This document shows, piece after piece, positions 28,785 through 41,018 of a DNA stretch of 43,093 nucleotides. Both the position numbers and the translations under genes were made by a program. The notes under the pieces were generated by a model, which made no database searches, had not been told where the DNA came from, and was given only the letters and a program-made list of their open reading frames with translations. Numbering within the stretch: the stretch's first letter is position 1; each line of letters starts with the position of its first letter. The DNA is from Bacteroidota bacterium (GTDB taxonomy: Bacteria > Bacteroidota > Bacteroidia > Bacteroidales > Prolixibacteraceae): NCBI GenBank assembly GCA_023251435.1, contig JAHEYU010000055.1:1-43093 (forward strand). Reading direction: 5' to 3'.

Positions 28785-28858
28785 TCGGGGTGGCCGGATT
28801 TGAACCGACGACCTCGTCGTCCCGAACGACGCGCGCTACCAAGCTGCGCTACACCCCG
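28785..28858 (-). tRNA. tRNA-Pro (anticodon CGG)
   Basis: Read on the minus strand this 74-base segment folds as a standard cloverleaf: acceptor CGGGGTG pairs with CACCCCG, the D arm GCGC pairs with GCGC around AGCTTGGTA, the anticodon stem CGTCG/CGACG holds the loop TTCGGGA with anticodon CGG, and the T arm GTCGG/CCGGC holds TTCAAAT. The discriminator base is A. The 3' CCA is not encoded and is added after transcription. It decodes the proline codon CCG. Confidence 0.96.
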
Positions 28859-39199: not shown

Positions 39200-39682
39200 T
39201 TATCCCAGTTTGTCTTCCAGTTTTGGCATGATCAATATCAGGCTGTTGATCAAGTCGCTATGCGTAATTCCTTCGCGCATGATCAACAAAATGGTGTCAT
39301 CGCCAGCAATAGTTCCGATGATTTCATACGGTTCAGAATTGTCGATCACAGCAGCCAAACTACTTGCATAACCAGGCATCGTTCGCATTACGGCCAGATT
39401 TCCGGAGAATTGCAAATCGCGAAATCCATCGGCCAAAAAATTGATGCGCGAATTTTCGCGCTGATTTTCTGTATTCACACCTTCAGGAATAACATAGACA
39501 TAGCCTAAAGCCTGATCGGAAACTTTTGCAACTTTCAGGATTTTTAAATCGCGTGACAAGGTAGCTTGGGTCAACTCAAAGCCCTGATCTTTCATGATGT
39601 GCAAAAGCTCATCCTGACTGCTGATCCGGCCACTGAGAATTGCCTGTTTAATTGCAAGCTGTCTTTTGGTGCGATTCTTCAT
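39200..39682 (-). CDS. argR: Arginine repressor ArgR
   Basis: 160 residues with the ArgR layout: an N-terminal winged helix (about 1-75; RQLAIKQAILSGRISSQDEL, then TQATLSRDLKILKVAKVS) and a C-terminal arginine-binding hexamerisation domain (about 90-160; GTIAGDDTILLIMRE). ArgR represses arginine synthesis genes when arginine is plentiful. It stands at the head of the cluster and divergent from carAB, and an operator-like pair of ATGCAAAAATATGCAA words lies in the shared intergenic region (39705-39735). Confidence 0.97.
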   Translation of the reverse strand: MKNRTKRQLAIKQAILSGRISSQDELLHIMKDQGFELTQATLSRDLKILKVAKVSDQALGYVYVIPEGVNTENQRENSRINFLADGFRDLQFSGNLAVMRTMPGYASSLAAVIDNSEPYEIIGTIAGDDTILLIMREGITHSDLINSLILIMPKLEDKLG

Positions 39683-39704: not shown

Positions 39705-39735
39705 ATGCAAAAATATGCAAAAATATTAATTGCAA
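39705..39735. promoter_or_regulatory. Candidate ArgR operator in the argR-carA intergenic region
   Basis: ATGCAAAAATATGCAAAAAT (39705-39724) repeats the word ATGCAAAAAT twice and is followed by TTGCAA (39730-39735). TGCAAAAATATTAATTGCA (39716-39734) is close to palindromic. ARG boxes in other bacteria are A/T-rich palindromes of about this length. The assignment is by position and symmetry only. Confidence 0.5.
39708..39735 (-). promoter_or_regulatory. Candidate argR promoter
   Basis: On the minus strand TTG (39733-39735) is followed 17 bases later by TATTTTTG (39708-39715), an exact TAnnTTTG box. The start codon is 26 bases further. It overlaps the candidate ArgR operator, which would fit autoregulation. 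Confidence 0.45.
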
Positions 39736-39759: not shown

Positions 39760-39767
39760 TATTTTTG
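39760..39767 (+). promoter_or_regulatory. Candidate -7 box of carA leader transcript
   Basis: TATTTTTG at 39760-39767 is an exact TAnnTTTG match. It lies 9 bases before the leader ORF, so the transcript would start almost at that ATG. The nearest TTG is 27 bases upstream, longer than usual, so the -33 box is unclear. Confidence 0.4.
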
Positions 39768-39775
39768 TGGCCGTA

Positions 39776-39862
39776 ATGAAAAACAAAAACGAATTGAAAC
39801 TTGAAAAGAACCAGGTTGAAAATCCGAAGTTATATAGTACCGACAGTTTGTTTAATAAATAA
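39776..39862 (+). CDS. 28-codon leader ORF upstream of carA
   Basis: ATG at 39776 opens a frame MKNKNELKLEKNQVENPKLY and ends after SLFNK with TAA at 39860-39862. It is rich in Lys and Asn and has no Arg. The stop is only five bases before a perfect intrinsic terminator and about 65 bases before carA. The ORF is short, so it could arise by chance, but its spacing to the terminator looks like a leader peptide of an attenuator. It is not a known family to me. A near-leaderless start is expected from the -7 box. Confidence 0.4.
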   Translation: MKNKNELKLEKNQVENPKLYSTDSLFNK

Positions 39863-39867
39863 CAACC

Positions 39868-39907
39868 ATGCGTTTGCCCTACAGCCGTAGCCAAACGCAT
39901 TTTTTTT
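39868..39907 (+). terminator. Intrinsic terminator/attenuator in the carA leader
   Basis: ATGCGTTTG (39868-39876) pairs exactly with CAAACGCAT (39892-39900). CTAC/GTAG (39879-39882 with 39887-39890) extends the stem above a small bulge with an AGCC loop. Eight T follow (39900-39907). It lies between the -7 box and the carA start codon, 19 bases before ATG, so it should cut off most carA transcription unless it is prevented from forming. Confidence 0.85.
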
Positions 39908-39926
39908 AATATTTAGCATTGCAACG

Positions 39927-41018
39927 ATGACACAACTTAGAAAAGTCAGATTGATTCTTGAAGACGGGACAACTTTTGAAGGAAAGTCGTTCGGATATGA
40001 AAAGTCAGTAGCCGGAGAAGTCGTTTTTTACACCGCTATGACCGGGTATCCGGAAAGTTTAACAGATCCTTCATATACGGGCCAGATCCTCGTCTCAACC
40101 TTCCCGTTGATTGGAAATTATGGTGTGCCAAGTGACTCGAAAGAGCAAAATTTATACGAATTTTATGAATCGGACAAGATTCATATCAGCGGTTTAATTG
40201 TTTCGGATTATTCGTTTGAATACAGCCACTGGAACGCCATAAAAAGTTTAGGCGACTGGCTGAAAGAACATAAAGTGCCCGGTTTATTCGGAATTGATAC
40301 CCGTGCACTAACCAAGATTATTCGTGTAAAAGGATCTTTACTCGGCAAAATTGAGTTTGATGATGAAGTGATCGATTTTTACGATCCGAATCAGGAAAAT
40401 TTAGTCGCCATTGCCAGTTCTGATAAAGTTGAAACTTTCGGAAACGGCGACCACCGAATAGTTCTGGTCGATTGTGGGGTAAAATACAATATAATTCGCT
40501 GTTTGCTAAATAGAAATGCAACAGTTATTGTTGTGCCATGGGATTACGATTTCAACAACGAAGATTTTGACGGTATCTTCCTTTCTAACGGTCCTGGCGA
40601 CCCTGCTTTGTGTGATGCAACAGTTGAAAATATTCGCAAAACAATGGTTGCTGAAAAGCCAATCATGGGAATTTGTTTAGGAAACCAGTTGCTTGCACGT
40701 GCTGCCGGAGCCGAAACTTACAAACTGAAATTCGGTCACCGCAGTCACAACCAACCGGTTTTGCTGCAAGGAACCGACCGCTGTTTCATTACTTCGCAGA
40801 ACCACGGATTTGCAGTGGATACAAAAACATTACCAGCTGATTGGGAACCTTTGTTTACCAACGTAAACGACCAAACCAACGAAGGAATTCGCCACAAAAC
40901 CAAACCATTCTTCTCGACTCAGTTCCACCCTGAAGCTGCCAGCGGCCCGGTTGATACCGAGTTTTTGTTCGACGATTTCATGAACAGTGTGATTGAATAC
41001 AAAAAGACGAAGAAGTAG
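39927..41018 (+). CDS. carA: Carbamoyl phosphate synthase small subunit (glutaminase)
   Basis: 363 residues, about the usual length. An N-terminal domain (RLILEDGTTFEGKSFGYEKS, TAMTGYPESLTDPSYTGQI) and a class I glutamine amidotransferase domain follow, with Cys250 in GICLGNQL and the His334-Glu336 pair in FHPEA. It splits glutamine and passes ammonia to the large subunit, which makes carbamoyl phosphate for ArgF' and for pyrimidine synthesis. It diverges from argR and is preceded by a leader terminator. carB follows at 41101 across an 82-base word-repeat spacer. Confidence 0.98.
   Translation: MTQLRKVRLILEDGTTFEGKSFGYEKSVAGEVVFYTAMTGYPESLTDPSYTGQILVSTFPLIGNYGVPSDSKEQNLYEFYESDKIHISGLIVSDYSFEYSHWNAIKSLGDWLKEHKVPGLFGIDTRALTKIIRVKGSLLGKIEFDDEVIDFYDPNQENLVAIASSDKVETFGNGDHRIVLVDCGVKYNIIRCLLNRNATVIVVPWDYDFNNEDFDGIFLSNGPGDPALCDATVENIRKTMVAEKPIMGICLGNQLLARAAGAETYKLKFGHRSHNQPVLLQGTDRCFITSQNHGFAVDTKTLPADWEPLFTNVNDQTNEGIRHKTKPFFSTQFHPEAASGPVDTEFLFDDFMNSVIEYKKTKK

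Follow-up and report, generated by a model that had tools for sequence, protein, structure and literature searches.

The element ahead of carA in the window (the whole stretch of 43,093 nucleotides that was analysed, from a Prolixibacteraceae metagenome-assembled genome) is real and conserved; it is most likely a ribosome-gated attenuator and a variant of known attenuation. At carA, the arginine and pyrimidine pathways part. If a ribosome-gated terminator is retained across a Bacteroidota family and pyrB has a PyrL-like counterpart, one could test in the phylum whether transcription and translation are coupled tightly enough for terminators to be gated.

The terminator and its promoter ahead of carA

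The order of elements in the window is promoter, intrinsic terminator, and carA, with no other full gene in between (Table 1), and at the level of sequence the attenuator layout, with a premature terminator before carA, can be considered established. The −7 box, the 28-codon open reading frame (ORF), the hairpin, the T8 tract, and the carA start were all read directly from the sequence where the initial annotation had placed them. The RNA is predicted to start at about 39772 because the σA box occupies positions −12 to −5 relative to the RNA start (relevant passages of PMC9723704), and the AUG of the leader ORF would then sit ∼4 nt from the 5′ end of the RNA. The outer stem of the hairpin is a perfect 9-bp helix between 39868-39876 (5′ arm) and 39892-39900 (3′ arm), and an inner stem pairs CTAC (39879-39882) with GTAG (39887-39890). 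The first T of the T8 tract closes the stem, which leaves 7 T beyond it. A gap of 19 nt separates the tract from the carA ATG, and the leader ORF stops 5 nt upstream of the stem.

Table 1. Features at the carA leader of the window
Feature	Position	Strand	Basis or remark
Divergent gene, presumably argR-like (from its sequence), head of the arg cluster on the other strand	39200..39682	−	translation
Candidate ArgR site: ARG-box-like 14-mer palindrome TGCAAAAATATGCA	39706..39719	+	between divergent argR and carA
−7 promoter box TATTTTTG	39760..39767	+	read from sequence
Predicted transcription start	39772	+	inferred from box at −12 to −5 (passages of PMC9723704)
Leader ORF, 28 codons, peptide MKNKNELKLEKNQVENPKLYSTDSLFNK	ATG 39776, TAA 39860-39862	+	read from sequence
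Terminator hairpin ATGCGTTTG..CAAACGCAT	39868..39900	+	sequence, predicted fold, family comparison
Possible hairpin ORF MRLPYSRSQTHFF*	39868..39909	+	AUG in start-like context; codon 2 is Arg CGU
T8 tract of terminator	39900..39907	+	read from sequence
carA, carbamoyl-phosphate synthase small subunit	39927..41018	+	PF00988, 173.6 bits (cut-off 27)

The hairpin alone has a predicted folding energy of −13.8 kcal/mol, and the predicted fold of the whole leader includes it at −28.1 kcal/mol (z −2.11), with 7 of 200 shuffles equally stable. A generic terminator scan did not detect the carA hairpin, probably due to its demand for an uninterrupted stem and a loop of 3-8. No Rfam family matched the leader element at gathering score, and a known Rfam element was rejected, the three matches below the threshold (two CRISPR repeat models and Yfr19) being taken as chance. 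Within the window, a tRNA gene (28785-28858, − strand) is the only feature to reach an Rfam gathering score.

The hairpin pattern occurs in 113 of 140 family genomes, compared with 8 of 140 for the reversed control, showing that it is found more often than by chance. Among genomes G000 to G036, the pattern lies upstream of carA and on the same strand in 35 of 37 (177 nt ahead of the carA match in G029), and the remainder are G007, which shows no carA, and G033, which has a variant stem. A lenient search of 80 named loci, requiring only GCG..CGC and T4, placed the hairpin ahead of carA in 76. The cultured relative Draconibacterium orientale (L070) also carries the element. The loci without a call are L077, where the same hairpin is seen by eye with an interrupted T run, L089, which is cut by a contig end, and L105 (Salinivirgaceae) and L109 (Culturomica), which are without such a hairpin. 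In the 76 hairpins of this search, from which invariance is quoted, the 5′ arm ATGCGTTT is exact in 72. The exceptions are GTGCGTTT with CGCAC (L071, compensated), TTGCGTTT (L076), ATGCGATG with ATCGCAT (L087, compensated), and ATGCGTTC (L095). Opposite positions 6 and 7, the 3′ arm has either A or G, with G in 27 and 16 hairpins, respectively, and the loop and inner loop differ between clades. Within the genus of the window, the hairpin is variable at 1 of 33 columns versus 61 of 100 for the leader; the 17 nearest carA loci (L032-L048) share 92-97% identity with the carA of the window.

For the wider comparison, 128 loci gave 93 unique leaders. The regular expression behind this set required [AGT]TGCG[AT]T and CGC, so that the search itself fixed stem pairs 2-5 and, for pairs 6-7, their 5′ side. 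Left out were L161-L165, L192, L201, and L202 (carA start not found by rule), L071 (regular expression), and L077, L089, L105, and L109 (no match in the lenient search). A TAnnTTTG box lies upstream of the hairpin in 90 of the 93 leaders and between hairpin and carA in 2. The distance from box to hairpin clusters by clade at about 100, 80, 70, or 48 nt, with single outliers. From the T run to carA, the distance is mostly 14-27 nt, rising to 44-54 nt in clade B and in two relatives with variant stems; in L111, carA follows 255 nt after the T run. Given that the hairpin is family-wide and near-invariant in the genus, and that the box lies upstream of it, a premature terminator (attenuator) before carA is well supported by these comparisons. 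The family comparison thus bears out the attenuator layout proposed in the initial annotation, which had also suggested ArgR acting at the promoter. In agreement with the latter, TGCAAAAATATGCA is found at 39706, and of 87 leaders, 62 have an ARG-box-like palindrome ahead of the promoter box, where shuffling predicts 3.2. At one locus (G038:C20:267539), the carA match lies inside an open frame of 1457 aa, and a carA-carB fusion is possible there.

Outside the family, 3 of 18 carA genes from other families of the order (L214, L223, and L224) have a terminator and 15 do not, as first judged by eye and later scored. In these three, a TAnnTTTG box is followed by a terminator with an unrelated stem and then by carA, with no box in between. 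The hairpin sequence is thus a family trait, and the layout is found in at least three further families. A class-wide carA motif was rejected, since the pattern is no more frequent there than by chance, with 26 of 295 class genomes (own included) matching it and 20 matching the reversed control; among the 26 matches, which were fetched, only the own one adjoins carA. The own genome has a single copy of the pattern, and a genome-wide regulon was rejected on this count. Two further observations concern hairpins of this kind. Locus L123 (G195:C2, same order) has a clean TGCGTTT..AAACGCA hairpin with T6 and no carA within 3 kb, and in genus g8 (L161-L166) the hairpin palindrome is flanked on both sides by A and T runs, with five genomes matching the pattern on both strands.

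Leader reading frames, start codons, and pairing of the 5′ arm

The hairpin is conserved family-wide, but the 28-codon ORF of the initial annotation is so only in part, its ATG being found in 9 of the 16 leaders of its genus and absent from 7. The frame itself has no stops over 21 codons in these 16 leaders, which is reached by 6 of 1000 column permutations. Its pN/pS of 0.59 is not significant alone (103 of 1000 permutations as low), and zero stops and a pN/pS as low occur jointly in 1 of 1000. Small indels ahead of the hairpin shift the frame, which ends, in the 15 leaders scored, at +20 in 8, −8 in 3, +39 in 3, and +45 in 1, i.e., always at most 8 nt before the hairpin or past its start. 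The stop of the leader ORF in the window is at −8 relative to the hairpin.

Among 48 non-redundant leaders that belong neither to clade B nor to the genus of the window, 42 carry an ATG or GTG between −48 and −36 that opens an ORF of 9 codons or longer; these 48 were retained from 57 by shared 8-mers, which removes relatedness in part. The −48 to −36 interval was picked after inspection, and hence the best interval was taken in each of 100 shuffles, giving an average of 13.0 and a maximum of 19. The ORFs from these starts end between −16 and +76 of the hairpin, in all frames, a range from which the 9-codon rule excludes earlier ends. A purine at −3 precedes 20 of the 42 starts, which are without the Bacteroidota start preference. 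In clade B, a start at −16 or −19 with an ORF ending at +26 is present in 12 of 18 leaders, and no frame stands out by pN/pS, the hairpin overlapping the ORF there. This clade (L096, L099, L102-L104, L110, and related loci) has a conserved short leader, GUGCGACAUC..AGAAUAUCGAUG, whose peptides, like MNKTPENAFLLLIKR, overlap the terminator. No single leader peptide is common to the family, and neither the frame nor the peptide of the ORF is fixed. The recurrent features are a start codon 36-48 nt ahead of the hairpin and an ORF ending near or beyond the hairpin base. Leader ORFs within reach of the hairpin for a ribosome are found on this comparison, more weakly in the genus of the window (9 of 16) and in clade B (12 of 18).

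The phylum of the window lacks Shine-Dalgarno sequences. The first three bases of the 5′ arm of the hairpin are AUG, present in 91 of 93 leaders, and leaders without A at position 1 carry GTG (L071, L162, and L190) or TTG (L076). This AUG has a purine at −3 in 92 of 93 leaders (A in 59, G in 33; 47 of 48 when non-redundant) and an A at −6 in 64 of 93; L046 and L047 were left out of the analysis that scored frame ends and the context of this AUG (no anchor). For comparison, carA starts outside the genus have a purine at −3 in 67 of 73. According to passages of PMC6847099, A at −3, −6, −12, and −13 goes with higher ribosome density in F. johnsoniae, whereas U at −3 accompanies lower density; in the vicinity of starts, AUG is rarer than expected across the phylum. 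By its bases, the hairpin AUG has a Bacteroidota-like start context. Both the upstream start and the hairpin AUG may be used, in which case ORFs stopping near the hairpin AUG could hand ribosomes on to it. The putative ORF from the hairpin AUG begins AUG CGU UUG, and its codon 2 is CGU in 75 of the 76 hairpins, the other one having CGA, a count constrained by the stem as well as by the GCG that the search required.

The terminator is part of the consensus folds of five clades, and the fold for the genus of the window additionally has two short stems elsewhere. The 5′ P1 hairpins that inspection by eye had suggested for several clades are absent from these folds. With the 3′ arm cut off, four of the five clades show no conserved pairing between the 5′ arm and the upstream leader. 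Clade B has 4 conserved pairs, of an upstream ACGC with GCGU of the 5′ arm, as an alternative to the terminator. Pairing of at least 5 bp between the 5′ arm and the upstream leader is available in 41 of 84 leaders, compared with 61.9 expected from shuffles, and is reduced in every clade. An antiterminator was rejected on these numbers. Given that upstream pairing is below the level of shuffles, the 5′ arm seems rather to stay unpaired, in keeping with a site for the ribosome and contrary to an antiterminator. In sum, comparison of the leaders supports the promoter box, leader length, hairpin, T tract, position, conservation, and leader start codons as features of the sequence.

Probable gating by ribosomes, its likely signal, and rival explanations

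With moderate confidence, we interpret the carA element as a transcription attenuator gated by a ribosome translating the leader, as at E. coli pyrBI and pyrE. Terminator function, its prevention by ribosomes, and the signal are what we infer here. RNA polymerase would start at the TAnnTTTG promoter, make a leader of ∼45-107 nt, and by default stop at the intrinsic terminator next to carA. Once it has reached the hairpin or entered it, a ribosome on the leader ORF would occupy the 5′ arm, so that the terminator would not fold and carA would be read; initiation at the hairpin AUG possibly helps this occupancy. The position of the ribosome would count, and the peptide sequence would not. Low pyrimidine nucleotides would act as the signal by slowing the polymerase, so that the ribosome catches up. 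A ribosome over the 5′ arm as antiterminator had been put forward in the initial annotation and remains plausible in light of the comparison. When, in E. coli, a stop codon ahead of terminator tR2 was brought closer, from 28 to 5 bp, termination fell from ∼90% to <10%, and uncoupling translation abolished this effect of stop distance (passages of PMC4824070). The stop 5 nt before the stem in the window resembles the tR2 case, an analogy that bears solely on whether such an arrangement can work, and ribosome gating at carA would presuppose transcription-translation coupling in Bacteroidota.

The likeliest signal at carA would be pyrimidine nucleotide supply, with arginine handled by ArgR at the promoter, because pyrB has a similar terminator and leader ORF. 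The layout at pyrB of the own genome (L226:1267-1492, G000:C23) is similar to that at carA, which lends support to the pyrimidine or translation-linked signal mentioned in the initial annotation. A T-run terminator, with a stem that is mostly ACCAACAG..CTGTTGGT, precedes pyrB in all 29 loci that were readable, counting the own one and with 1 of 30 dropped, and the leader ORF runs through it in 26 of the 29 (L226 and L229-L258; L243 was left out, its pyrB start not being resolved). This ORF is rich in Phe, Pro, and His by eye, and its first 75 nt have, in the genus, no stops and a pN/pS of 0.51 (10 of 1000 permutations as low). Arguably, pyrB has a PyrL-like attenuator, on sequence a stronger case than carA. 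No such terminator was found in the 300 nt before the script-chosen starts of pyrE, pyrF, and pyrD. The 60 nt ahead of the carA hairpin are A-rich, with 24% T in the genus of the window and 28% in clade g11, the two clades measured, compared with 34% at pyrB. A U-rich pause region was thus not found before the carA hairpin in either clade, and a UTP-sensitive pause is not obvious there, which counts against a simple copy of pyrBI.

Arg-rich leader ORFs were rejected as an arginine readout, since Arg codons are at the level of shuffles (43 of 496 codons versus 39.1); leaders with at least one Arg codon number 30 of 42, versus 26.2 in shuffles. The initial annotation had argued against arginine from the lack of an Arg codon in the 28-codon leader. 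This argument overlooks the second possible ORF, at the hairpin, with its Arg CGU. A ribosome on the hairpin AUG might wait at CGU when charged Arg-tRNA is scarce, cover the 5′ arm, and let carA be read, with no need for a competing hairpin. We consider this unlikely, although it is the likeliest of the alternatives. In its favor are the AUG in 91 of 93 leaders with a purine at −3 in 92, the GTG or TTG in leaders without A at position 1, the match with the A preferences of F. johnsoniae (passages of PMC6847099), and the retention of CGU in 75 of 76 hairpins although G faces U in 27 of the 76, where CGC would pair too. Against this, CGU is one codon and not a run, ArgR boxes already serve arginine, and an estimated ∼24 nt from AUG emergence to the T tract leave little time for a fresh ribosome; moreover, both searches demanded GCG in the stem, making codon 2 CGN (Arg) by construction. 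Slightly less probable still is that the start codon within the 5′ arm makes initiation and terminator folding mutually exclusive, with CGU at codon 2 as the arginine sensor. If true, such control by one codon, with neither a control peptide nor an antiterminator, would represent attenuation in a new minimal form.

We give marginally less credit again to a constitutive brake, i.e., a fixed-leak terminator that merely lowers carA relative to its promoter, with incidental ORFs. The free variation of ORF frames and peptides and the lack of a demonstrated signal would fit such a brake, but start-codon positions kept far beyond shuffles and the extreme conservation of the hairpin would not. A trans-acting RNA-binding protein or small molecule that binds the hairpin directly would account for how little the 5′ arm AUGCGUUU varies; ATGCGTTT is intact in 72 of 76 hairpins, whereas the 3′ arm has A or G at the two places given above. 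This asymmetry is partly mechanical, however, since most single changes in the 5′ arm would break the pairing, and the loop and inner loop vary between clades. The own genome has no match to the PyrR profile NF003549, which matched 12 of 14 controls (above cut-off in 6), and PyrR control was rejected; with no Rfam match either, direct binding seems quite improbable. Least probable of all is that the hairpin ends an independent small transcript (a small RNA or peptide gene) and that carA has its own later start. Leader and hairpin do make a tidy transcription unit, but the T tract and carA are mostly 14-27 nt apart (44-54 in clade B), with a TAnnTTTG box between hairpin and carA in just 2 of 93 leaders.

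Comparison with known systems

Attenuators of the his and trp type share a leader ORF and a terminator with the carA element, whose leader differs in having neither Arg codon enrichment nor an excess of antiterminator pairing. PyrR-controlled pyr attenuators have a terminator ahead of pyrimidine genes in common with it, and here there is no PyrR match and no antiterminator signal. The carA motif RNA of Polynucleobacter (SRC-12-1) likewise combines a promoter with a structured RNA immediately ahead of carA; it differs as an extended imperfect hairpin of beta-proteobacteria that is thought to be translational and is not described as a terminator in the passages of PMC8632094 that deal with it. 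E. coli controls carAB at two promoters. Attenuation plays no part at the arginine-regulated one (passages of PMC6245113). Transcriptomes of B. thetaiotaomicron (PMC7366714) and F. psychrophilum (PMC9723704) treat short leader ORFs or leader-peptide attenuation in general, and the main-text passages concerned do not mention carA. No paper on the carA element was found among those listed by the literature searches, which covered openly accessible main texts.

The E. coli pyrBI system (PyrL) resembles the carA element in its promoter, its translated leader, and its intrinsic terminator beside a pyrimidine-pathway gene. At the pyrBI attenuator, the position of the ribosome decides. A distance dependence at pyrBI is cited in passages of PMC4824070. 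Compared with pyrBI, the carA leader is shorter, is A-rich instead of U-rich, and has no peptide common to the family; its ORF in many cases ends ahead of the hairpin or within it. The pyrB leader of the family matches pyrBI more closely than the carA leader does. At E. coli rph-pyrE, the distance from the upstream stop to the attenuator matters for control of pyrE by the uracil level (passages of PMC2784333). The carA element of the window is similar in that the stop lies near the attenuator, 5 nt from the stem, and it differs in that the upstream ORF is a full gene at rph-pyrE and a short leader ORF at carA.
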